DNA from: Bacillota bacterium
GTDB taxonomy: Bacteria; Bacillota; Dethiobacteria; DTU022
Length of the DNA: 39,866 nt
Assembly (NCBI GenBank): GCA_029552125.1
Contig: JAKPEE010000009.1
Coordinates: 1 to 39,866 of the forward strand
Direction: 5' to 3'
Part shown: positions 4,707 to 30,822 of the stretch, in pieces
Position numbering within the stretch: position 1 is the stretch's first letter
How the letters are laid out: each line of letters starts with the position of its first letter
The notes under the pieces: model-generated
What the model was told of the DNA's origin: nothing
The model's input: only the letters and a program-made list of their open reading frames with translations
Database searches by the model: none
Made by a program: the position numbers and the translations under genes

Positions 4707-7700
4707 ATGCAACAACTAACAGTACTGCTTTTATCCCTGGATCGCTGGCTGCACGGTTTAATTTATGCCGCCGCGGCGCTCTCACGGGGTTACGAAATCT
4801 TTTGGGTGAACCCGGACCGGGTCGAAGAAGAGATCGCCGCCCTGGAGCTTCTCAGCCGGAGGCTGCCTCTGTCCCTGGTCGATGCCACCGGCAGCGCCGC
4901 CTTCAGTGAAGCGCTCTGCAGCGCCCCGGGGCGGGAGCGTTTGCCGGTAAACTTCAGCCTGCCGCCTATCAGCGATCCGGAGCTGCTGGCGGAGCGTTTT
5001 GGCCCGGTGCGCGGTATGGTTACCGCCCCGTCAAAAGATCCGTCACGCTGCCTCAAGGCGGCCGTAGTGGCGGTCCGCACCGGTTACTTCTTTTTACCTG
5101 AAGAAATGCTTGACGCGGCATCCCGGCTGCCCGGCGGGCTGCCCCTGGTCCGGCTGGGCTGTGCAAGCAACTGCAGCCATGCGGATGACGCCCGCTTCGG
5201 GCCGATTTTTGATCTCCCCGACGATGCGGCGCTGGCTGCTTTCATGCAACAACTGGAAGCGCCGCCTGATTACCTGCTCTTGTATAACTCCGGTGATATT
5301 CACGAATGTTCTGCTGCATCCCGCTCCATGGGGGATTACCGGGTCAGGGGGTTAAGCCTGCTCGCGCCCCTGTGCGCCTCTTACCGCCGCGTTTTCCCTT
5401 ATGATGTTGGGGCGGCCCGGCCCGACCCGCGGGCCGTCGAAGCAGAATTGAACAGTTTCGTCTCCCGGACCGGGCTGCAACTGAAATACCAGGCCATCCT
5501 GGCTTCACCCGGAGCCATCCCCTTGATCTACGACCGCCGCCTGACCATCGGCAGCCGCAGCGAAGAGGCGGTCCGCGAGATTCATCTGCGCTTAAATGAC
5601 GATCTCTTCTTTGATCTGGCCGAAGGGCGCCTGTTCCAGTCGACTCCGGGCGGCCTCTCGCAGCAGATCATTTCGACCAAGCATTATCACCGCCTTGCCG
5701 GAGCCGGCGCGGGAGAAAAAGAGGTCCTGGTGGTGACCACGCCTCATGTGGAAGGCGGGATCATCTTCACCGCTGACGAGCCCTTAATCGAATGCCAGTT
5801 AAAACCGCTTTTAGAGGAGGCGGGATACGGGGTCAAGATCCTCTCCGGCGAGAAAGCCCATGGGGATGCCATCGCCGCCGCGCTGCCGCAGGCTGATTTC
5901 TTTCTCTACACCGGGCATGGCGGCCCGGAATCGCTGCATACCCACGGGCGTTTTCTGACGCGCCGCGAGCTGCCGCCTCTACCCCCGCTGGTAGCCTTTG
6001 CCTCGGCCTGCTCCACGGTGGCAGTAGATCCGCACTGGTATTCCACCAGCGACGGCCTGGACTGGGACTGCATTCCCGTTTCCGCCCCGGAGGTAATCGG
6101 GCTGGCCATGGTGGAAAAGGGGGCAGTCTGTTACGTGGGCGGCATGACCCTGGAAGACCTGCAATACAGCACCCCGGCTTACGGCATTTTCATGGAGGCG
6201 CTGCTGGTCAAGGGCTGCAGCACCGGCGAAGCCGTGCGCGCAGTGCGCCACTTTGTCAGCCTCTACGCCTCCATGTTGCAGCAGAAATCTCCCGAGAGCT
6301 ATTACTGTTACCAGCAGGGTACGGCCGCCGCCATCCACCAGTTGCTCCTGCTGGGCGATCCAGCCCTGGTCCCCTGCCCGCGGCAGGGGCCCGCAAAGGT
6401 TGCCTTGCCGCAAGAGTGCGAAACGGACACAGCGCGCAGCCGCCTGAAGGTGGCCGTCCCGGAAGAGCGCTGGCGCCGCTCCAGGGGGGCGGTCAACCCG
6501 CTGCCGCCGTCAAAATACTATTACCGCAGTCGAGCCATCGAGGTGCTCTCCCCCTTTGGCGAAGACGTGGTTAGCTGGGGCGACTGCTACCGTATCGCCC
6601 CCGACGCCGAAGGGATTACCGAAACGGCGCTGCTGTCGGGCTTTTTGCACCTGCATCTTGATCTTCCGCCGGGACGCTACCCGCTGCGCCTTGACCTGGT
6701 GGAGGTAAAAGCAGCCGGTGCAGAGTGCCTGCTCTGCGGCCGGGAAACAGAACCTCCGGCTAATTTAAAGGAGGCTTTTCAAGATTTCCGCCTGCCCCAC
6801 CTGCTCCTTCCCCCGGCCCGGATCAATATGGCTGCGGGGTGGGCCTTTGCCGTAGAAGAACGGGGTTTTGATCAGGGCTTGCGGATCCACTGGCTGGCGC
6901 CGGCGCTGGTCATTGACGAAGCGACCCGCACCGCGGTGCGGGCGGCGGAATTTCTGTTTGAGTTAAAGACCGCGGCGGGGCAAAGGGTAAGCGGCCAGGT
7001 TCTCCCCCCCGGCGGCGCAGGCGATTCCGGCAAAGCCTATCTCATCAGCGCCGCCGTAGCCGCGGAGAGCGGGGCGGAGGGCGGCGGTGCGGTCAAAGCG
7101 GAACGGCCTGAAACGCCTCTAAACGTTGTTTTCCAGGGCCTGACCCGCCCGGGAGGATCATTTTCCTTTACCTGCGCCGCCGCCGCCAACCAACTTGCCG
7201 TTGCAGAGCAGTTCCCCCTTTTCGAACTGGTTGGGCCGTACCGGACCTTCCAAAAAGAGCGCCTCCCGCTGCCGCTGCCACAGCCCGAAATCCGGCTCCG
7301 CGCGGCCAGCCAGGGGAAAATTTCCGGGAAAGTGCTCGACGTGAAGAGCGGCGCCGCCCTGCCGGGGGCGCTGATCAGGGTCTGGCGCGGCCTGGAAGAC
7401 CCGGTAAGGGATCCCTTGATCGAAGCGTTCGCCGGTGAGGCGTACAGCGACGCCGCCGGCGCTTTCTCCTTTGATTTGCCCGCGGGGAAATATCTTCTTT
7501 TTGCCGTAGCGCGGCGGGAGGGAGTGGCCTATAAATCTAAATCCGTTACGCTCGAGATTTTTGCCGAAGAAGAGCAGCATCTGCTGCTGCCCCTGGACAT
7601 CGCCGCGGTCGTCAGCGGCCACATCAAATATGGCGCCGCTCCGCCGCTGCTGCATCCAGTGATTGTCACGTTGATGCGCTACCCGGAAAAAGACGGGGGA

Positions 7701-7901
7701 GAGACAGTGGTATCAACGCCGGTGCGGCCCGACGGCTCCTTCTCTTGCCTGGTCGGCTTTCAGGATCGTTTCTATGTCTGGATTGAAGAGGAAGGGTGGC
7801 AGGCGATCAAAGATAACAACCAGGGACGCGGCTACAAAATCCCGCCGGGCGAGGAGCTGCGCCTGGAGTACACTTTGCTTCCGGAGCAGGAACAGCAGTA
7901 G
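4707..7901 (+). CDS. Large C25 (gingipain)-like cysteine peptidase with C-terminal beta-sandwich repeats, copy 1
   Basis: A 1064-residue protein I cannot name. Residues 1 to about 250 look alpha/beta, with segments such as YEIFWVNPDRVEEEI. Residues about 260-555 resemble a peptidase C25/clan CD domain: LASPGAIPLIY, then NDDLFFDLAEGRLF, then FFLYTGHGG (candidate catalytic His404) and FASACSTV (candidate nucleophile Cys435), ending LLGDPALVP. The His-to-Cys spacing of 31 is close to that of gingipains. A middle region contains a CLLC pair. Residues about 870-1060 form two CarboxypepD_reg-like sandwich domains (GKISGKVLDVKSGAALPGA). There is no signal peptide, lipobox or membrane anchor, so a cytoplasmic location is inferred. 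GAGGAGG precedes the ATG. It lies in the peptide-importer operon and has a full-length paralogue next door. Proteolytic activity is inference. Confidence 0.7.
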   Translation: MQQLTVLLLSLDRWLHGLIYAAAALSRGYEIFWVNPDRVEEEIAALELLSRRLPLSLVDATGSAAFSEALCSAPGRERLPVNFSLPPISDPELLAERFGPVRGMVTAPSKDPSRCLKAAVVAVRTGYFFLPEEMLDAASRLPGGLPLVRLGCASNCSHADDARFGPIFDLPDDAALAAFMQQLEAPPDYLLLYNSGDIHECSAASRSMGDYRVRGLSLLAPLCASYRRVFPYDVGAARPDPRAVEAELNSFVSRTGLQLKYQAILASPGAIPLIYDRRLTIGSRSEEAVREIHLRLNDDLFFDLAEGRLFQSTPGGLSQQIISTKHYHRLAGAGAGEKEVLVVTTPHVEGGIIFTADEPLIECQLKPLLEEAGYGVKILSGEKAHGDAIAAALPQADFFLYTGHGGPESLHTHGRFLTRRELPPLPPLVAFASACSTVAVDPHWYSTSDGLDWDCIPVSAPEVIGLAMVEKGAVCYVGGMTLEDLQYSTPAYGIFMEALLVKGCSTGEAVRAVRHFVSLYASMLQQKSPESYYCYQQGTAAAIHQLLLLGDPALVPCPRQGPAKVALPQECETDTARSRLKVAVPEERWRRSRGAVNPLPPSKYYYRSRAIEVLSPFGEDVVSWGDCYRIAPDAEGITETALLSGFLHLHLDLPPGRYPLRLDLVEVKAAGAECLLCGRETEPPANLKEAFQDFRLPHLLLPPARINMAAGWAFAVEERGFDQGLRIHWLAPALVIDEATRTAVRAAEFLFELKTAAGQRVSGQVLPPGGAGDSGKAYLISAAVAAESGAEGGGAVKAERPETPLNVVFQGLTRPGGSFSFTCAAAANQLAVAEQFPLFELVGPYRTFQKERLPLPLPQPEIRLRAASQGKISGKVLDVKSGAALPGALIRVWRGLEDPVRDPLIEAFAGEAYSDAAGAFSFDLPAGKYLLFAVARREGVAYKSKSVTLEIFAEEEQHLLLPLDIAAVVSGHIKYGAAPPLLHPVIVTLMRYPEKDGGETVVSTPVRPDGSFSCLVGFQDRFYVWIEEEGWQAIKDNNQGRGYKIPPGEELRLEYTLLPEQEQQ

Positions 7902-7962
7902 GGGCCCGGGCTTCCGCTTTGCGCCGCTCTCATGGCCATAATCTTTGGAGGTGATTCTGGCA

Positions 7963-10900
7963 GTGACCGCAGTACTCGATCTCCTGTTATTATCCATCAA
8001 TGACTGGCGGCGCAGCCTGTCGCTTGCTTCAGCCGCCCTGGCAAAGCCGGACAGTGAAATCTTCTTTGTTGATCCGAATAAAATCGACAGTGAACTGTTT
8101 GCGTTGAAGCTGCTCGCTGCGAGGCTGCCGCTGCGGGTTACCGACGCCACCGGTGACGACGCCTTCAGCGAAGCGCTGCGGGCAGCCCCGGAGTTAAACT
8201 TGCAACAGGCAGCCGCAAGCATAGAGGCCGACCCGGTGCGGCTGGGCCAGCACTTCGGGCCGCCGCGGGGCCTGGTCTGCGCGCCCGCGGACGATCCGGT
8301 CCGCTGTCTCAAGGGAGCGGTCCTGGCCGTCCGCTTAGGTTACTACTTTATCCCCTGCGGCGGCACGGAGAGCCATTCATCCGGTTGGTGCGAACTTTTT
8401 ACCGCTTCGGGGTTGGCCTTTCATTTGCCGCTAATCTGGCTCGGCCCGGCGGAGCGGCCGCCAGAGCTTTCCGCCGCTGCCGGGCTTCACGATTTTACGG
8501 CCCTGCCCGATGATCCGGCCCTGGCCCGTTTTATGCTCCGGCAAGGCCTGGAAATAGACTATCTGCTTATCTATAACTCCGCTGACCTGGAGCAGGGGAG
8601 CGGCGCGCCGCGCTCTCCCGGCGAGGCCTGGGTGAAAGGGTTGAGCCTGCTGGCGCCGCTCTGCGCCTCTTACCGCCATGTTTTTCCCTATGATGCGGCG
8701 GCGGCCAGGCCGGAGCCGGCGGAAATAGAAAAGGGGTTGAACCGCTTTGTATCCAGGGCCGGCCTTCGCCCGCGCTACATGGCCCTTCTGGCTTCACCGG
8801 GAGCGATCCCTTTGCTCTATGAGCCGCGGCGGACCATCGGCAGCACCAGCGAAGAGATGGCCCGGGAGATCCACCTGCGCCTGAATGACGATATTTTCTT
8901 TGACACGGCCGAAGGCCGCCTTTTCCAGTCAAGCCCCGGGGGGCTCTCCACGCAAATACTGACCACCAAGTATTATCACCGCCTGCCCGGAGCCCGGCAA
9001 GAAACCAGAAAGGTGCTGGTGGCGGCCAGCCCTGCCGTTGAATACAAAATTATCTTTAACTCCGACGATCCGCTGCTGGAAACCCAGTTTACGCCGCTAT
9101 TGGAGCAGTGCGGCTACCGGGTCACCCTCCTTCAGGGCCAGGAGGCCAGGGCGGATCGCATTGCCGCCGCATTAAAGCAGAGCGATTTCTTCCTCTACGC
9201 CGGTCACGGCACCACCGAGGCGCTGATGACTTGCGGCCACTTTCTCACACGCAACGATCTGCCGCTGCTCCCTCCGCTGGTGGCCTATGCTTCGGCCTGC
9301 ACCACCGTGGGGATGGATCCTTACTGGGTTTCGGCCTCCGACGGCCTCGACTGGGAGGGTATACCGGTGCCTTACCGCGACCAATTCGGCCTGGCCATGG
9401 TTGAACAGGGGGCCGTCTGCTATGCCGGGGGCATCACCTCCATGGACCTGCAATTTGCCACCTCCATCTACCCGATCTTCTTTGAAGGTTTGCTGGTAAA
9501 GGGACTGAGCGTGGGCGAGGCCCTGCAGGAAACCCGCCATTTTGTGAGCCTGTATGCCTCCCTCTTGCAGCAGAAAGCTCCCGAACGTTACGGCTGCTAC
9601 AAGTGGTGGATCGCCGCCACCCTGCAGCAGCAGATTTTGCTGGGCGATCCCGCCCTGGTGCCCGTACCGCGGCAGGGTAACGCGGGTACGGCGCTGCCGC
9701 GCCAGGTCGAACCGGAGGGGGACCGCTACCGGGTGACCGTATCCATCCCGGAGAACAGGTGGCGGCACTCGCGCAAACCGGTTCACCCCGGGGAGGCCAC
9801 CCGGTCCTATTACCGGACCCGCCACGTAGAGGTGATTTCGCCCTACGGCGAGGATGTGGTCAGTTGGGGCGATTTCTACCGCCTGGCCCCCGGCGCGGAT
9901 AATATGGCCGAGAACGCGGTGATGGCGAGCTACCTCCATCTTTATCTCGATCTGCCCCTGGCCTTGATGCCCCTGCGGCTGAAGCTGGCCGGGGTAAAAG
10001 AGGCCGGTTATACCTGCCTCCTTTGCGGCCGGGAGGCGGAGCCGCCCCGCGAGATCGCGGCCCTCTTCCAGGACTTCCGCATTCCCTTTTTAATGATGCC
10101 GGCGGTGCGCTTCGATTACCGCGAAGGATGGGCCTTTGCCGTTGAAGAGCGCAGCGACTGCCACCGGGTGCACTGGTTAGTCCCGCTCCTGGTGATCGAC
10201 GAAGCTACCCGCGCCGCGGTAAGGGCCGGCGAGTTAACCTTTGAGCTGCATACCGCGGCGGCGCTCACTTTCAGCGGCAAGGTACAGGCCCCCGGCGCAG
10301 CCACAGGGAGCTCTTTTCTGGTCAGCGCCGGAACCGCGCGCCCATCCGCGGGCGGCAAAAAGGAGGAGACAGGGGAGACAGGGGAGACGCTTGCGGTGGC
10401 GGTACAGGCGGTGACCCGTCCCGGCGGCTCCTTTAAAATCAAGTGTGCCGCTGTGGCCGATGCGGCCAGCGTGGACGCCCAATTTCCCCTCTATGAAATC
10501 CTGGAGCCTTACCGGGCTTTTCAAAAAGAGCTTTGGCCTCTCTCCCTCCCGGAGCCGGTGCTGCTCTCCCCCCGGGAGGCCCTTCCCGGCCAGATCTGCG
10601 GCAAGGTGCTCGACGCAGTCACCGCGGCGCCCCTGCCGGGCGCCCTGGTCAGGGCCTGGCGCGGCGAGACCGATCCCTCAGGCGACCTGATGACTGAAGG
10701 CTTCGCCGGGGAGGCTTCTGCCGCCGCTGACGGCAGTTTTGAGCTGGCCTTGCCCGCGGGTCAATACCAGCTCTACGCGGTGGCCCGGGCAGGGGGAGTG
10801 GACTACAAAAGCCAATGCTTTACCGTGGAGAGCACCGCCGGTGACAGGCTTTACCTGATTTTGCCCCTGGAGGCTGGGGCCCGGGTGTGCGGCCGGGTCT

Positions 10901-11166
10901 ACTTTGCCGGGGCGGCGCCCCTTTACCCGGTCAAGATCAGCCTCAAAAGATATCGCGGCGGCGCTCCCGGGGAGACATTGGCGGCGGTGCATGCCGGCCG
11001 TGACGGCAGTTTCGCCGCCCTGGTGGCGGCGCGGGAGCGCTTCTGCGTGGTGATCGAGGAAGAAGGCTGGAGAACGGTAGAGGATAGCAGTTTGGGCCAC
11101 GGGTTTAAGCTGCAACCCGGGGAAGAGCTGCGCTTAAGCTATACCCTGGAGCCGCGGGAAGGGTAG
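7963..11166 (+). CDS. Large C25 (gingipain)-like cysteine peptidase with C-terminal beta-sandwich repeats, copy 2
   Basis: A paralogue of the preceding gene along its entire 1067 residues, with well over half of the residues identical by eye in the catalytic block. Candidate catalytic residues are His415 (FFLYAGHGT) and Cys446 (YASACTTV), again 31 apart. The shared LCASYR, EGRLFQS, LASPGAIPL, GLDW and LLGDPALVP stretches are retained, as is the CLLC pair. Two C-terminal sandwich domains begin at GQICGKVLDAVTAAPLPGA. GTG 7963 is chosen as start because GGAGGTG (7947-7953) is nine bases upstream and the N-termini of the two copies then align; the longer TTG start at 7945 would sit on the ribosome site itself. 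No secretion signal is present. A short acidic insertion encoded by a 9-bp tandem repeat separates it from copy 1 near residues 800-810. Function beyond the fold is unknown. Confidence 0.7.
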   Translation: MTAVLDLLLLSINDWRRSLSLASAALAKPDSEIFFVDPNKIDSELFALKLLAARLPLRVTDATGDDAFSEALRAAPELNLQQAAASIEADPVRLGQHFGPPRGLVCAPADDPVRCLKGAVLAVRLGYYFIPCGGTESHSSGWCELFTASGLAFHLPLIWLGPAERPPELSAAAGLHDFTALPDDPALARFMLRQGLEIDYLLIYNSADLEQGSGAPRSPGEAWVKGLSLLAPLCASYRHVFPYDAAAARPEPAEIEKGLNRFVSRAGLRPRYMALLASPGAIPLLYEPRRTIGSTSEEMAREIHLRLNDDIFFDTAEGRLFQSSPGGLSTQILTTKYYHRLPGARQETRKVLVAASPAVEYKIIFNSDDPLLETQFTPLLEQCGYRVTLLQGQEARADRIAAALKQSDFFLYAGHGTTEALMTCGHFLTRNDLPLLPPLVAYASACTTVGMDPYWVSASDGLDWEGIPVPYRDQFGLAMVEQGAVCYAGGITSMDLQFATSIYPIFFEGLLVKGLSVGEALQETRHFVSLYASLLQQKAPERYGCYKWWIAATLQQQILLGDPALVPVPRQGNAGTALPRQVEPEGDRYRVTVSIPENRWRHSRKPVHPGEATRSYYRTRHVEVISPYGEDVVSWGDFYRLAPGADNMAENAVMASYLHLYLDLPLALMPLRLKLAGVKEAGYTCLLCGREAEPPREIAALFQDFRIPFLMMPAVRFDYREGWAFAVEERSDCHRVHWLVPLLVIDEATRAAVRAGELTFELHTAAALTFSGKVQAPGAATGSSFLVSAGTARPSAGGKKEETGETGETLAVAVQAVTRPGGSFKIKCAAVADAASVDAQFPLYEILEPYRAFQKELWPLSLPEPVLLSPREALPGQICGKVLDAVTAAPLPGALVRAWRGETDPSGDLMTEGFAGEASAAADGSFELALPAGQYQLYAVARAGGVDYKSQCFTVESTAGDRLYLILPLEAGARVCGRVYFAGAAPLYPVKISLKRYRGGAPGETLAAVHAGRDGSFAALVAARERFCVVIEEEGWRTVEDSSLGHGFKLQPGEELRLSYTLEPREG
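10363..10389 (+). repeat. Three tandem 9-bp repeats inside C25-like copy 2
   Basis: Three units of G(A/G)GGAGACA-type sequence encode EETGETGET in a linker of the second C25-like protein. Copy 1 has no equivalent. The reading frame is preserved, so unit number could change without breaking the gene. Confidence 0.7.
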
Positions 11167-25268: not shown

Positions 25269-26207
25269 ATGGCGCCCTGGTTGGCCAACGGTTTAATCTA
25301 TGCCAGTGCCCTGGCTTTAACGGCCGGCGGCATCACTTTGCTTTACATTACCACGCGAACATTCAATTTTGCCCATGCCAGCATGGCTACAGTGGGCTTC
25401 TATGTAGTCTACAGCTTTATTATATTTATCGGCGGTTCACCTTACCGCTATTTTCCATTTGCATTCCTGTTTGGCGCCCTTTTAGGGGTAATCTGTTACT
25501 ACGGGTTGAACCGGCCCTTGTTAAAGCGCCAGGCGTCGGAGATAACACTGATGATGTCAACCCTGGGTTATGATCTCATCCTTCTCTCGCTAATCCAGAT
25601 GTATTGCGATTTCCTTACTTCCAATTACAAACTTTTCCCTCGCCGGGTCAATATGAACATGTATGATCTGGAACTGTTCGGTATTAATGCCGCGACGATA
25701 ATTCTGCCCTTAATGGCCATTATCTGTTTATCTGCCCTGCACCTGTTCCTGGGCAAAACCAAGTTCGGGGTGGCCATGAAAGCGACTATCGAAAACCCGG
25801 TCCTGGCCGGGGCTTCGGGCATAAATTCCGACCGGGTTTACATGGTGGCATGGCTCATCGGCGGCGGCATGGCCTCCCTGGGTGGCGCGGCCATGGCCAT
25901 GGCGCAGACAGGGACCCCGGTCATGGGCATGAATTCAATTCCCTTTATGTTTGCCGGCGCCATACTGGGAGGCCTGCACAGCCTCTATGGGGGCATATTG
26001 GGCGGTTTCATGGTCGGCCTGGCCGAATACGCGGGGGTATTTCTCCTGTCTCAGAAATTTGGGCCATGGATCCTGGGCTACCGCATGGGCATACCGCTTT
26101 TATTGATGGCCATAACCCTGCTCATCTTTCCGCGGGGCTTGGCCGGTATTCCCTGGGCTGACCTGTTCGGCCGCCTAACGGGCAAGAAAAGAGGTGTACA
26201 GGCATGA
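25269..26207 (+). CDS. Branched-chain amino acid-type ABC permease, LivH type
   Basis: The 312-residue membrane protein starts with the family's characteristic run (LIYASALALTAGGITLLYIT, then FNFAHASMATVGFYVVY). It has the coupling-loop region FGVAMKATIENPVLAGASGI and the GAILGGLHSLYGGILGGFMVGL segment. A GGAAGGGAGGGGG ribosome site overlaps the end of the LivF-type gene. It overlaps the LivM-type gene by four bases. It forms the translocation pore with that protein. Confidence 0.92.
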   Translation: MAPWLANGLIYASALALTAGGITLLYITTRTFNFAHASMATVGFYVVYSFIIFIGGSPYRYFPFAFLFGALLGVICYYGLNRPLLKRQASEITLMMSTLGYDLILLSLIQMYCDFLTSNYKLFPRRVNMNMYDLELFGINAATIILPLMAIICLSALHLFLGKTKFGVAMKATIENPVLAGASGINSDRVYMVAWLIGGGMASLGGAAMAMAQTGTPVMGMNSIPFMFAGAILGGLHSLYGGILGGFMVGLAEYAGVFLLSQKFGPWILGYRMGIPLLLMAITLLIFPRGLAGIPWADLFGRLTGKKRGVQA

Positions 26208-27385
26208 GCGACGACAAACAGATTGTTTCCAGGCTGAAAGGATTCCTGCTGCGCAGGGAAGTCATCATTACTGCCGTAATCGTGGCGCTTTTAACCTTCC
26301 TGCTGATCACCCGCGGCGTACCGATGATTTTAACCATTTTTATTGATTTTGCCATCTTTGCCATTGTGACCTTGAGCCTGAACCTGGAGGTAGGCTATAC
26401 CGGCATATCCCAGTTCGGGCGGGTGCTGGCCGTCATGGCCGGCGCTTTTGGCGCGGGCGCTATTCCGGGGCGGGTTATGGCCGCGATTATGGGGCTGCCG
26501 TGGGGGGCCAGCTATGCCGAGGCTACGGTTAACTTTAAACTGGTTCCCCAGCTAACCGCTGTCCTGGAAAAGAGCTGGTTCCTATCCATAGTCTTTTTAA
26601 TCTTCTGCCTGCTGGTGGCGGCGCTGTGCGGCGCGGGCATCGGCTGGCTCACTTCCCGGCCGGCCATCCGCTTAAAAGAGGCTTACCTGGGCATATCGCT
26701 GCTGGCTTTCGGTGACCTGTTAATGTGGATCGGTCATAACTGGGAACCACTGGTCGGGGCTACCACTTCGGTTTATATCCCCGATCCTTTCCGCTTCGTT
26801 CCCGGCAACCGTTTCCAGGTGGTAGTGATTACAGTGTTTGTCATTGCCTTTTTGATCTATTTCTTTATTAATAAGTTGACCCATTCGCCTTTTGGCCGGA
26901 CGCTCAAAATGGTGCGGGACAATGAAATTTCCGCAGCCGCCGCCGGCAAAGATGTGGTCAAGATCAGGACCAGGAGCCTCATGATCGGCTCGGCCATTGC
27001 GGCTATCGGGGGGGCTCTTTATGTCATTTACACCGGGGCTGCCACAGCCATCGGGTTCACCAGGCTAACCTGGACCTTCTGGCCATGGGCCTTTATGATG
27101 CTGGGCGGTATCGGCAGCAACTTGGGTGTTCTTTTAGGCGTTTTCCTGCTAACCATCTTAAGATCGATGATTACCATTTTCCGCTTCCAGGTGTTCGGTT
27201 TCCTCATCCAGTGGGGTATTGATCCTACCTGGCTGGAATTTACCCTCATGGGCGCGGTGATTATCGTGGTGGTCCTATTCCTGCCGCACGGACTGGTTCC
27301 GGAGAAAGTGGAGCCGGTGCTTCCGGCAGATCGCGTCCAGAAAGTGATAACGAACATGTCAAGTCGGGGACGGTTCTTGACTTGA
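26204..27385 (+). CDS. Branched-chain amino acid-type ABC permease, LivM type
   Basis: A 393-residue membrane protein with the LivM features LSLNLEVGYTGISQFG near residue 60, the RLKEAYLGISLLAFGD core, the coupling loop around MVRDNEISAAAAGKDVVKIR, and the ending LPHGLVPEK. It is longer than many LivM proteins through an insertion near residues 85-125. The last residues (about SSRGRFLT and the TGA) are encoded by the first copy of a 27-bp repeat at 27359-27385, so the original C-terminus was changed by a repeat insertion. The conserved part ends before this, so function is probably kept. It is the final gene of the operon, followed by a terminator. Confidence 0.91.
   Translation: MSDDKQIVSRLKGFLLRREVIITAVIVALLTFLLITRGVPMILTIFIDFAIFAIVTLSLNLEVGYTGISQFGRVLAVMAGAFGAGAIPGRVMAAIMGLPWGASYAEATVNFKLVPQLTAVLEKSWFLSIVFLIFCLLVAALCGAGIGWLTSRPAIRLKEAYLGISLLAFGDLLMWIGHNWEPLVGATTSVYIPDPFRFVPGNRFQVVVITVFVIAFLIYFFINKLTHSPFGRTLKMVRDNEISAAAAGKDVVKIRTRSLMIGSAIAAIGGALYVIYTGAATAIGFTRLTWTFWPWAFMMLGGIGSNLGVLLGVFLLTILRSMITIFRFQVFGFLIQWGIDPTWLEFTLMGAVIIVVVLFLPHGLVPEKVEPVLPADRVQKVITNMSSRGRFLT
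27359..27385 (+). repeat. 27-bp dispersed repeat, copy A, inside the end of the LivM-type gene
   Basis: It has TCAAGT and ACTTGA ends enclosing a GGGGACGGTTCTTG core. Copies B (27389-27415) and C (29271-29297) differ at one or two positions. Copy A provides the stop codon of the LivM-type gene. Confidence 0.9.
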
Positions 27386-27388
27386 ATT

Positions 27389-27415
27389 TCAAGTTGGGGA
27401 CGGTTCTTGACTTGA
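27389..27415 (+). repeat. 27-bp dispersed repeat, copy B
   Basis: Lies 30 bases downstream of copy A in direct orientation and differs from it by one base (TTGGGG instead of TCGGGG). Confidence 0.9.
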
Positions 27416-27478
27416 AGAGGAACTACCTGTAGCGCCTGGTTTCCGCAGAACAGTACACCCAAGCCAGTAAATCGAAGG

Positions 27479-27511
27479 GGGGTCGTCCCAAAAGTCAGTT
27501 GGGACGACCCC
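27479..27511 (+). terminator. Rho-independent terminator of the Liv-type operon
   Basis: A perfect 12-bp stem (GGGGTCGTCCCA / TGGGACGACCCC) with a 9-base loop, followed by TTAGGTTTGTTCTT. It may act in both directions, since the EamA gene on the complement ends about 110 bases away. Confidence 0.85.
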
Positions 27512-27621
27512 TTAGGTTTGTTCTTGCGGCGCAGGGGCGCCAGTAGAGGAGTGCAACCCCTTTTATTATTTTTCTCATAGGCGATGGGGATGTTGCGGCT
27601 TACTGCCTTTAGGTCCTAAGA

Positions 27622-28554
27622 TCACCTTAACGGGGGAGGGGCTGCCGCCTGGTGGTTCTTGCCCGGCAATTCTTTGCGGCGTCCTTCCATCTTATTCTTG
27701 TAAATGCTGCGGCCGGTAACAGCGGCCAGCACTACCACTCCGCCTAGAATAGCCCACGGCCCCGGCGTTTCACCGATGACTAGAAGGACCCAGATGGGGT
27801 TTAACAGCGGCTCAATGATCTGGATCAGCACCGCATCCAGGGCGGTAACATGTTTGATGGCTGCGCTGTAGAGTAAAAATGAAAGGCCCAGTTGGAAAAT
27901 ACCGAGAAAAGCCAGCGCCGCCCAGCCGGCCGCCCCCGGAGAGCCCTGCCCGTAGTATGGAAGACAGAGCAGGGCGGTGAGAATATTGCCCAGGATGACC
28001 GTTTCCACTGGTGAACCATCCTTTTGCCTGCGCATACATAGAATAAAGATGGAAAAGACAATGCCGCTGAAAACAGAAAGAATGTTGCCCCAGAAGGCGC
28101 CCGGAGAAAGTTCGTCCAAGAAGAAGAGGGCCATGCCGCCCATGACCAGGGCGATAATACCCCAGTCCAGGCGGGTCACTTTTTCTTTAAGAAACCATAT
28201 TCCCAAAATAGCGGTATAAACCGGCGCAGTATACTGCAGCAAGATGGCATTGGCGGCCGTGGTCATTTTTACGGCGATAACAAAAGATATTACCGTTAAG
28301 GCGTAGGCCAGTGCGCCTCCCAGTTGCGGCGCAGAAAAATTGAAGCGCAGGCGCCGGCGCATCACCAGCATCATGGTTGCGGCGGCGACGGCGCTGCGCG
28401 TGCCGGCAATGGCCTGCGGGTTCCACTCGATGATCTTGATAAAGAGGCCGTTAAGGCTTAACAACAGCGCTGACAGGACCAAATAGAGAATAGCTTTATT
28501 TCTTTCCTTAATCGCGGCCTGGGCTGTTTCTGTACTCAATGCTTCATCTCCCAT
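27622..28554 (-). CDS. EamA/DMT family transporter, copy 2
   Basis: The 310-residue ten-segment membrane transporter is clearly paralogous to copy 1 at 21125-22006: shared stretches include TTAANA(V/I)LLQYTAP, FILCMRRQKDGSP and IKHVTAL(E/D)AVLI. It has two EamA halves and a hydrophilic N-terminal extension of about 20 residues. Both copies point the same way and bracket the Liv-type importer, which suggests exporters of the same or related compounds or an old local duplication. The substrate is unknown. It ends about 110 bases from the Liv terminator. Confidence 0.88.
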   Translation of the reverse strand: MGDEALSTETAQAAIKERNKAILYLVLSALLLSLNGLFIKIIEWNPQAIAGTRSAVAAATMMLVMRRRLRFNFSAPQLGGALAYALTVISFVIAVKMTTAANAILLQYTAPVYTAILGIWFLKEKVTRLDWGIIALVMGGMALFFLDELSPGAFWGNILSVFSGIVFSIFILCMRRQKDGSPVETVILGNILTALLCLPYYGQGSPGAAGWAALAFLGIFQLGLSFLLYSAAIKHVTALDAVLIQIIEPLLNPIWVLLVIGETPGPWAILGGVVVLAAVTGRSIYKNKMEGRRKELPGKNHQAAAPPPLR

Positions 28555-28650
28555 CCACCGTAATTATGGGATCAATTCGCTGAAGCAGCAGGTTTTCCTT
28601 TGACCGGCCGGCTTGAGCCCTTCTTTTTTTTCCTGAATAGCGCTGCTGCC

Positions 28651-29253
28651 TTAGAGAGCAAGCACAGCAGTGGATAAAAGCAAATCAACAATATCATACA
28701 TGTTGCTGATAGCGCCTACGTTCAGGGATTCCTTCAAGCCAAAGTAATCGAGACAGGTGCCGCAGGCCAGGATTTCCACGCCGGCCGATTGCATAAGCTT
28801 TAGCTCTTCCAGCACCGCCGAGCCTGAGGTGCAAAGCTTAACCCCGCTGTTCATAAAAATTAGCGCCCGGGGCAGCCGGTCGCGCCTGGCCAGGGTGTAG
28901 ATAAAGTTGCGCATCAACAGCCGGCCTAGCTCTTCGCTGCCCTGGCCAAGCTGATCGGAGCTGATTAGAATTACCTGCCCCGGCCCGGCCTGCGGGAGAT
29001 CGCCAGGGTGTTCACTGCTACGGCCGGGCTCTTGATCCGCCACGGCTCCACCAATATCAACGACAAATTCATTCTCCTGCTGCCGCCACCCGGCCTGCAG
29101 GCCGCGGTTCCTGGCAAAGCGCAGGATATTGTCCCGCGCCACATCATTGTCCACCAGGACTTGCAAAGGGGCGCCCTCATTTTCTTCCAGCGCTTTTTTT
29201 ACCCGCAGCACCGGCTCGGGGCAGCTTAGCCCGCGGCAGTCGATCTTTTGCAT
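28651..29253 (-). CDS. yedF: Selenium metabolism protein YedF (TusA-DsrE fusion)
   Basis: A 200-residue two-domain protein. Residues 1 to about 72 are a TusA-like domain with the sulfur/selenium-carrying CPEP motif (Cys11 in CRGLSCPEPVLRVKKAL). Residues about 95-200 are a DsrE-like domain with GQGSEELGRLLMRNF, the cysteine in SGVKLCTSGS, and ILACGTCLDYFGL. This fusion defines the YedF family found in selenium-using bacteria, thought to handle a reactive selenium species. ATG 29253 is chosen because CGGAGGTG is just upstream; a longer TTG start at 29274 would put the ribosome site inside the gene. It is separated from the desulfurase gene by 125 bases containing two repeat elements. Confidence 0.92.
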   Translation of the reverse strand: MQKIDCRGLSCPEPVLRVKKALEENEGAPLQVLVDNDVARDNILRFARNRGLQAGWRQQENEFVVDIGGAVADQEPGRSSEHPGDLPQAGPGQVILISSDQLGQGSEELGRLLMRNFIYTLARRDRLPRALIFMNSGVKLCTSGSAVLEELKLMQSAGVEILACGTCLDYFGLKESLNVGAISNMYDIVDLLLSTAVLAL

Positions 29254-29270
29254 CAGGACACACCTCCGAT

Positions 29271-29297
29271 TCAAAGTGGGGACGGTTCTTGACTTGA
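29271..29297 (+). repeat. 27-bp dispersed repeat, copy C, inside the selenium operon
   Basis: Same core GGGGACGGTTCTTGACTTGA as copies A and B, with TCAAAGT at the left end instead of TCAAGTT. It lies just upstream of the yedF ribosome site. Confidence 0.88.
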
Positions 29298-29308
29298 ATT
29301 AGTCCTGC

Positions 29309-29330
29309 GGCGCAACACGCTGCGCCCCTG
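29309..29330. repeat. GGGGCGCAGC repeat element, copy between yedF and the desulfurase gene
   Basis: GGCGCA and TGCGCC form a six-bp hairpin here. The complement (29330-29313) matches 34229-34246 at 16 of 18 positions, and a shorter related stretch occurs at 27532-27543. It sits beside copy C of the 27-bp repeat. Confidence 0.6.
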
Positions 29331-29378
29331 TGTATATTACATTATTCCCGGACCATGATATGGTAATGAGCTCACCCT

Positions 29379-30548
29379 TTACCGGGCGCGGGTGAATGCG
29401 CTTATCTCCGCCACGGCGCCTGCCAGGTAGTCTACATCTTTGTCCGAGGTGAAATAGCCGGGACTGAGGCGGACGGTGCCCTGGGGGAAGGTGCCGGCAG
29501 CCTGGTGGGCCAGGGGAGCGCAGTGCAGGCCGGTGCGGCAGATAATGCCGAAAGAGCTTTCCAGGATATAGCCAAGCTCGCCGCAGTCAACCCCTTCCAG
29601 GGTAAAAGAGAGGACCGCGGTGCAGCGGTCGTCATCGGCCGGGCCGTAGACAGTCACTCCTTTAATCTCCTCAAGTTTGCGCCGCAAACGCTTGCGGAGC
29701 GTCACCTCGTGGGCTCGAATTTTGTCCAGGCCTGTTTCTTCAATAAACTTTATGCCTTCAATCAGGCCGGCCAGCCCGGGGCTGTTCAGCGTACCCGCTT
29801 CCAGCCGCTCCGGCATCGTTTCCGGGTGAAGGTCCATTTCGGAATGGCTGCCCGTCCCCCCTTCGCGCCACGGTTTTAAATCAAGGCCCGGCCGGACGTA
29901 AAGCCCCCCGGTGCCCGGCGGCCCCAGTAGCCCCTTGTGCCCGGTAAAAGCAAGCATATCGACAGGGGCAGCCGCCAGATCAACAGGCACCGCCCCGGCC
30001 GATTGTGAAGCATCAACCAGCACCGCTACCCCGTGGCGGTGCGCCGCTGTGGCCATCTCCTTTAGGGGCAGGATCGTTCCTAGAACATTGGAAGCGTGGT
30101 TAATCACCAGCAACCGGGTGCGCCGTTGAAAAGAGCGCTCCATAAAATCCAGGTCGGGGTATCCTTCTGGAGAGCAGGGGATCATGGTTGTGCTGATTAA
30201 CCCCGCCCGGCGCAGGCCGCCCAAAGGGCGCAGTACCGAGTTGTGATCCATGGCGGTATAAAGCACATGATCGCCCGCTTCCAGCAACCCCTTGATGGCC
30301 ATATTTAAAGCGTCGGTGGCGTTAAGGGCGAATACGATCCGGCCCGGATCGGCGATATGGAAAAAGCGGGCCAGGGTTTCCCTGGCCCGGTAAACCAGGC
30401 GGTCCGCTTCCAGGGTGCGGGTATGCCCTGAGCGCCCCGGGTTGCCCCAACTGCCCCGCAGGCAGCGTTCAGCCGCACCGTAGACCGGTTCCGGCTTGGG
30501 CCAGGAGGTGGCGGCGTTATCAAAATACAAATTCAGTTCACTGTTCAT
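29379..30548 (-). CDS. Class V aminotransferase / cysteine desulfurase family protein (EF2568 type)
   Basis: A 389-residue PLP enzyme related to SufS/NifS. The cofactor lysine is Lys205 in AFTGHKGLLGP, with the aspartate in VAVLVDASQSAG. A catalytic cysteine candidate is in CRTGLHCAPLAH near the C-terminus. The N-terminus YFDNAATSWPKP and the RTGLHCAP segment are typical of the EF2568-type family found beside selenium genes, where it is thought to act as a selenocysteine lyase or desulfurase. ATG 30548 is preferred over an upstream in-frame start at 30611, which lies inside the DUF3343 gene; the two genes then overlap by 11 bases. Confidence 0.9.
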   Translation of the reverse strand: MNSELNLYFDNAATSWPKPEPVYGAAERCLRGSWGNPGRSGHTRTLEADRLVYRARETLARFFHIADPGRIVFALNATDALNMAIKGLLEAGDHVLYTAMDHNSVLRPLGGLRRAGLISTTMIPCSPEGYPDLDFMERSFQRRTRLLVINHASNVLGTILPLKEMATAAHRHGVAVLVDASQSAGAVPVDLAAAPVDMLAFTGHKGLLGPPGTGGLYVRPGLDLKPWREGGTGSHSEMDLHPETMPERLEAGTLNSPGLAGLIEGIKFIEETGLDKIRAHEVTLRKRLRRKLEEIKGVTVYGPADDDRCTAVLSFTLEGVDCGELGYILESSFGIICRTGLHCAPLAHQAAGTFPQGTVRLSPGYFTSDKDVDYLAGAVAEISAFTRAR

Positions 30549-30822
30549 GGGCGGGGCCTTCTTTCTTCGAAAATAGGCGGGGCAGGCTAAAGTCTTTTTC
30601 TTCAATTTCATATGAACCTTCGGTTTCCACCCCGTTTTCTTTAAGAAGGCGCTCCACCTGCGGCCTGTCCGGGCAGAGGCAGCGCAGGGCGATGCCGCAG
30701 CTGGAGCTGATGCTGCGCGGTACCGGAACCATTTTATACTCCAGGGGGCTGTTTTTAAGCAGGGCTTCCGCGCGCAGGGCGTAATGTGTGGTCGAGAATG
30801 TAATATAGCAATATAGAGCCAT
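30538..30822 (-). CDS. DUF3343 putative Se/S carrier protein
   Basis: The 94-residue protein matches the DUF3343 pattern: an N-terminal beta strand and helix (YITFSTTHYALRAEALLKN), a central strand (YKMVPVPRSISSSCGIALRC) containing the conserved Ser-Ser-Cys-Gly, and a second helix. Proteins of this family are found in selenium-utilisation loci and are regarded as likely carriers of a sulfur or selenium atom on the conserved cysteine. It overlaps the desulfurase-like gene by 11 bases, consistent with the two acting together. Confidence 0.88.
   Translation of the reverse strand: MALYCYITFSTTHYALRAEALLKNSPLEYKMVPVPRSISSSCGIALRCLCPDRPQVERLLKENGVETEGSYEIEEKDFSLPRLFSKKEGPAHEQ

Follow-up and report, generated by a model that had tools for sequence, protein, structure and literature searches.

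A hairpin repeat with a constant loop in a Dethiobacteria genome and its probable link to a TIRYT-type Y1 transposase

Introduction

TIRYTs or TIRtrons, defined in 2013 by Di Nocera et al., are Y1 transposase genes flanked by inverted repeats, some of which contain GGGGWSAS (PMC3733652; this and the other papers are cited from the available parts of their text). The repeats are treated in that account as terminal inverted repeats (TIRs). Self-complementary tracts are noted in some of them, and members of some TIR families lie dispersed as single copies, dimers or groups (PMC3733652). Here we describe a repeat of this kind in 39,866 nucleotides of a Bacillota bacterium (Dethiobacteria, DTU022; assembly GCA_029552125.1, contig JAKPEE010000009.1, positions 1 to 39,866), a stretch called the window throughout. 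It carries three direct copies of a unit with short inverted ends, as a preliminary description of the sequence had reported. Very probably, this repeat forms the terminal hairpin of a Y1 HUH-transposase system of the TIRYT type, which resembles the tyrosine transposases (RAYTs) associated with repetitive extragenic palindromic (REP) sequences.

Quentin et al. (2018) place 20 of 26 published TIRYTs in subclass 2.1 of TnpA-Y1, for which the available part of their paper reports no REP-like structures. Genes of subclass 2.6 adjoin atypical secondary structures and are listed mainly in Bacteroidetes (PMC6006769). According to work on REPs of the GTAG type, the enzyme can contact loops and stem irregularities (PMC8266576).

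Copies in the genome and the associated transposase gene

The preliminary description had proposed a genome-wide count of the repeat and a search for a Y1 transposase gene near copies of it. At up to two mismatches, the source genome (G000; 2.56 Mb in 159 contigs, 87% complete) contains 24 matches, of which 14 are exact, eight have one mismatch and two have two, whereas the reversed pattern used as control has none. The copies are spread over 11 contigs and some are single. Eight of them pair as four inverted dimers of ~112 bp with a related spacer of ~70 bp (two dimers each on contigs C101 and C143), and two others make a short dimer at C3. One of the C101 dimers folds into a long hairpin (-36.9 kcal/mol, z -9.5).

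The genome has two Y1_Tnp genes, on C43 and C91. The gene on C43 encodes a protein of 276 residues (P0001; PF01797, 61.3 bits with a cut-off of 23) and is enclosed by an inverted pair of the window repeat, which matches over 26 bp at 100%. The HUH histidines His60 and His62 and the tyrosine Tyr119 are invariant across 19 aligned relatives. In the congener G001 the counterpart of this gene is 89% identical and is flanked by the same repeats. Searches of PHROGs and the PDB with the transposase returned nothing useful, and matches of its C-terminal part to helix-turn-helix domains are weak and below the cut-off. The gene on C91 is flanked by another inverted pair with the core GGGGACGGGGCAATT. 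The repeats around it belong to a separate family, GTGACAGTGGGGACGGGGCAATTTTGTCAC (C91 804-865 and 1672-1705), and include an additional copy in tandem.

A constant loop on a compensated stem

The unit is a hairpin. Its stem is variable and compensated, and its loop of 11 nt, GGGACGGTTCT, is nearly fixed in 44 genomes. Flanks of the transposase genes of relatives contain the same loop on different stems, for example AATTCACATTG/CAATGTGAATT and TTGCGACAG/CTGTCGCAA. Stems were compared in 195 distinct copies from the 44 genomes, including genomes with one, probably chance, match. Stems of at least six pairs, G-T allowed, are found in 53% of these copies and in 10% of mixtures of arms from different genomes.

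Covariation was measured with one randomly chosen unit per genome (n = 44). Nine of the ten stem pairs vary on both sides, likewise in the shuffled sets. Cells changed on both sides number 125, compared with a mean of 65.8 (standard deviation 6.1) after shuffling, and none of 500 shuffles reaches 125. The covariation score is 0.525 against 0.222 for shuffled sets, and registers slid along the unit score at most 0.220. A separate permutation gave the same picture, with 281 paired cells in the real set and at most 231 in 1000 permutations. All 44 sequences were sampled by the presence of the loop, so its constancy in that set is by choice; evidence that the loop is conserved comes from the loci identified via the transposase.

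Distribution and transposase phylogeny

These loci are the best 80 of 576 relatives and were found by transposase alignment alone. By title they are mostly from Bacillota, with some from Bacteroidota, Nitrospirae, Proteobacteria and Actinobacteria. Flanking inverted repeats with a score of at least 14 are present at 50 of the 80 loci. All 50 contain GGG[AT]C and 26 of them contain GGGACGGTTC; when downstream flanks were swapped between loci, 18 of 396 combinations qualified. An uninterrupted Watson-Crick stem of at least six pairs surrounds the core at 22 of the 50 loci, compared with 5% of 200 mixed controls. The core reads from the upstream flank toward the gene in 73 of 75 repeat-bearing loci (106 examined).

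A quick tree of 66 transposases has 11 changes of loop type, whereas 100 shuffles gave a mean of 20.5 and a minimum of 19. The loop labels partly caught a stem GGGAC, and most such rows are in the class "other" (9 of 75), which was excluded before the tree test. Pairs of proteins that are 40-50% identical have the loop type in common in 59% of cases, while their 5' arms agree at 3.6 of 9 bases, with 3.3 expected from composition. Loop type tracks the transposase phylogeny and stem sequence hardly does. Because the loop type follows the tree while the stem arms reach chance identity, the loop is probably the feature recognized by the transposase, as judged from these sequence comparisons.

Across 199 genomes there are 1910 exact occurrences of the 12-mer GGGGACGGTTCT and 60 of its reverse. 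The 12-mer is present in 121 of the 199 genomes, with up to 130 copies in one of them. Among the 94 genomes that have a homologue of P0001 (E up to 1e-5), 71 contain at least three copies of the motif, compared with 16 of the 105 without one. Outside the class of the window organism the corresponding numbers are 17 of 28 and 4 of 74; kinship of the genomes is ignored in both comparisons. Two genomes, G063 and G082, hold 63 and 55 loop motifs, respectively, and no P0001 homologue at E 1e-5. This suggests that their transposase was lost, has diverged or is unassembled.

Units at gene ends

For 13 of the 24 units of the source genome, an open frame of at least 60 codons runs in from the 5' side and stops in or just past the unit. 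Seven of these frames were judged to be genes and the remaining six antisense or spurious. The genes ended by a unit encode LivM, an oxidoreductase of the DAO family (PF01266), a YolD-like protein, a DUF4870 protein and a rubrerythrin-like protein; further candidates are a 170-residue open reading frame (ORF) without a Pfam match and a putative gene, the ORF on C159. On C49, a unit directly follows the stop of a gene that encodes a pyruvate kinase C-terminal domain. Other units adjoin, by eye, the ribosome sites of oppositely pointing genes.

In the window, the 20-mer GGGGACGGTTCTTGACTTGA has three exact occurrences, at 27366, 27396 and 29278, with a chance expectation of 0.01 even with up to three mismatches allowed. 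Unit 1 (27359-27385, forward strand) is the hairpin TCAAGTCG[GGGACGGTTCT]TGACTTGA, with its stem at 27359-27366/27378-27385 and its loop at 27367-27377. Unit 2 (27389-27415, forward strand; TCAAGTTG[GGGACGGTTCT]TGACTTGA) follows in tandem. Both are 27 bp long with the termini TCAAGT/ACTTGA. In unit 3 (29271-29297, forward strand) the left arm is decayed (TCAAAGTG) and its terminus is imperfect, TCAAAG; the loop and the right arm are intact. As DNA, unit 1 folds with -4.9 kcal/mol (z -2.9), the fold of unit 2 is weaker (z -1.1) and that of unit 3 is not stable (z +0.35).

Unit 1 forms the 3' end of a gene for a LivM-type branched-chain amino acid permease (26204-27385, forward strand; PF02653, E 1.3e-33, residues 41-357 of 393). 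The preliminary description had assigned the final residues and the stop of this gene to the repeat. In frame, the unit indeed encodes the last eight residues and the stop, SSRGRFLT*. That description had also proposed a comparison with relatives lacking the repeat, and orthologues without the unit have different tails in the four relatives compared: RVKRVLAGRQ in G008, RVKKVMAQREL in G021, QVRKVLEKRQAAAS in G003 and RVRRVITDGLEPSKPAVNRPLS in G017. The LivM of the congener has the unit and the tail VTSSRGRFLT. Likewise, the DAO protein of the source genome ends in GTVLDLN and three relatives end otherwise. In the unit-ended LivM and DAO proteins the domains are intact and the change is confined to the last residues. 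Such units explain odd C-termini of annotated proteins, namely -GRFLT, -GDGS and -GTVLDLN.

Unit 3 is located between yedF (selenium metabolism; 28651-29274, reverse strand; TIGR03527, E 6.5e-63) and an upstream gene of the cysteine desulfurase family (29379-30611, reverse strand; TIGR01977, E 3.7e-134). It lies 5' of the Shine-Dalgarno-like GGAGG of yedF, which agrees with its earlier placement by the yedF ribosome site. The TIGR03527 match begins at residue 11, and the true start of yedF, judged by eye, is probably the inner ATG near 29253.

Shortly 3' of LivM, at 27477-27513, is a strong G+C-rich inverted repeat (GGGGTCGTCCCAA/TTGGGACGACCCC), which is terminator-like and has no good T run. 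Elsewhere in the window, two adjacent paralogue-like ORFs of 1064 and 1073 residues (4707-7901 and 7945-11166) lie beside an oligopeptide-type ABC transporter and have weak to moderate Peptidase_C25 matches. Another dispersed repeat of ~50 bp (CCCCCTCTCCCTTGCC...) was seen on C53 near 27100 and has many copies in both the source genome and the congener.

Comparison with the congener

Copies occupy matching positions in the source genome and the congener at C3, C43 (at 5644 and at both flanks of the transposase gene), C49, C67 (LivM and yedF), C101, C134, C135, C143 and C159. For the copies on C53 and C150, the congener has no copy at the aligned place, and three copies of the congener have none at the aligned place of the source genome. 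The LivM locus has two tandem units in the source genome and one in the congener. The non-shared sites have one alignable flank or replaced sequence, and neither an insertion boundary nor a target duplication can be read from the two genomes. The two genomes offer no clean empty site that would attest recent movement in the genus, although the family has spread. The preliminary description held that the element inserts at gene ends. Such transposition is suggested by the position of the units alone, and most loci are common to both genomes.

On C101 (18300-20600) of the source genome, two direct copies of the 112-bp dimer enclose the DAO gene. At the counterpart on C117 the congener has a single dimer, and it lacks an orthologue of the DAO gene (best match 29%). 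In G003, G008 and G017 the DAO gene is in a different context, with a synteny that does not match the source genome. The segment may have been gained in the source genome or lost in the congener through the repeats. This segment may suggest that dimer pairs can carry off or bring in whole genes, but we regard the idea as improbable.

Discussion

The assignment of the window repeat to a TIRYT-type system is favored because the same hairpin, in inverted orientation, flanks a Y1 gene on C43 and in the congener, and single units and ~112-bp dimers occur elsewhere. It is further favored by the copy number relative to the control, the covariation of the stem, the co-occurrence of motif and transposase, the fixed orientation and the distribution of loop types on the tree. 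Several observations weigh against it. The stems of window unit 3 and of the upstream copy at the C43 transposase gene are imperfect. Flanking repeats that reach the score of 14 are missing at 30 of the 80 loci, and 28 of the 50 repeat-bearing loci have uninterrupted Watson-Crick stems of fewer than six pairs. Furthermore, 16 of the 105 genomes without a P0001 homologue hold at least three motifs, and comparison of the source genome with the congener, which have most sites in common, yields no clean filled/empty pair.

The 112-bp dimers have perfect 27-bp inverted ends, as would an ordinary miniature inverted-repeat transposable element (MITE) made of the ends of a cut-and-paste (DDE-type) insertion sequence and recognized as double-stranded DNA. 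The gene enclosed by such ends is, however, a Y1 transposase in the source genome, in the congener and in many further genomes. Many units are single and have no partner, and the stem keeps its pairing while its sequence is free, which a double-stranded site does not need. An origin as a MITE is very improbable. Hardly more probable is a set of selected RNA elements (attenuators, terminators or stabilizers of mRNA 3' ends) with an incidental link to the transposase. The location of units at gene ends and ribosome sites fits such a role, and compensated stems would also fit RNA. Positions 26800-29800 of the window, on the other hand, have no Rfam match up to E 1, and the units are absent among the terminator-like sites found. 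The non-Watson-Crick cells of pairs 2-8 comprise 34 G-T and 51 A-C, without the excess of G-U that an RNA on this strand should show, in copies pre-selected for pairing. The flanking loci and the co-occurrence also connect the repeat to the transposase.

A static relic would have spread long ago, with the present differences caused by recombination or tandem duplication between copies and not by current transposition. Most loci are common to the congener, the difference at LivM is a second tandem unit, and the dimer-DAO-dimer segment of C101, compared with one dimer in the congener, fits a deletion between direct copies. On the other side are the transposase gene, which is intact and has an 89% identical counterpart in the congener, and the three copies of the congener without a copy at the aligned place. 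We consider a relic possible, although somewhat unlikely; it bears on present activity and not on the kind of system.

In a TIRYT-type system, the transposase would act on single-stranded DNA, reading the loop plus the shape of the hairpin, and would nick beside it. Dimers could be moved or copied in trans, and the single units, including those of the window, may be remnants of dimers. Insertions would be tolerated, and units would persist, where the end of the element abuts a stop codon or a ribosome site; at such sites they could replace the last few residues of a gene. It is rather likely, if less certain than the assignment of the window repeat itself, that hairpins with a GGG[AT]C loop and freely evolving stems constitute a further large class of REP-like repeats in Bacillota and beyond, each acted on by a Y1 enzyme of the TIRYT type that reads the loop, and that the terminal inverted repeats published for TIRYTs are these hairpins. 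Searches for the family in Bacillota can use the conserved loop as a simple rule, and with this loop placed on a variable stem, a few oligonucleotides suffice for a direct test of how these enzymes recognize their substrate.

The preliminary description classed the repeat as a REP/MITE-type element. Inverted dimers of MITE/REPIN shape and the Y1 gene agree with this; the lack of a GTAG foot and the constant loop do not. The REP/RAYT reading is correct in kind, yet the units are not GTAG REPs. Like GTAG REPs and REPINs with their RAYTs, they are short, palindromic and dispersed, form inverted dimers and lie beside a Y1 gene and at gene ends. In GTAG REPs, as described in the available accounts, a conserved tetranucleotide stands unpaired at the stem foot, whereas the constant part is here the 11-nt loop (PMC3733652, PMC6006769, PMC8266576). 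The present units start with TCAAG-GGGG, have no unpaired GT[AG]G foot and carry their constant motif in the loop, and membership in the GTAG REPs was rejected. Published surveys, in their available parts, tie REPs to the foot tetranucleotide (PMC6006769). CGTC REPs are also palindromic, and CGTC occurs in the present loop when it is read as the reverse complement. Their tag is unpaired at one end, their loops have 4-5 nt and the available text associates no transposase with them (PMC3733652). Membership in this group was rejected as well, with the motif inside an 11-nt loop and the transposase flanked by copies.

P0001 is similar to subclass 2.1 proteins in length and in its helix-turn-helix-like C-terminal end. 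The tyrosine motif of that subclass is Y[IV][EH]LNP, whereas the present proteins have YIH[NQ]NP, which resembles the motif listed for subclass 2.6 (PMC6006769). The closest published kind is the TIRtron/TIRYT, and the window repeat belongs there. Both have a Y1 gene with HUH and tyrosine motifs and flanking inverted repeats other than GTAG REPs, and GGGGWSAS of several published TIRs differs from the present core GGGGACGG by one mismatch (PMC3733652); the core forms GGGGACAG and GGGGTCAG are found at other transposase loci. Loop-tagged hairpins were not found in print in the literature searched, which excluded most subscription papers. The available part of the TIRtron account does not mention a loop that stays constant on a compensated, free stem (PMC3733652). 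This architecture, its breadth and its link to the phylogeny of the enzyme are what the present comparison adds to the TIRYTs.

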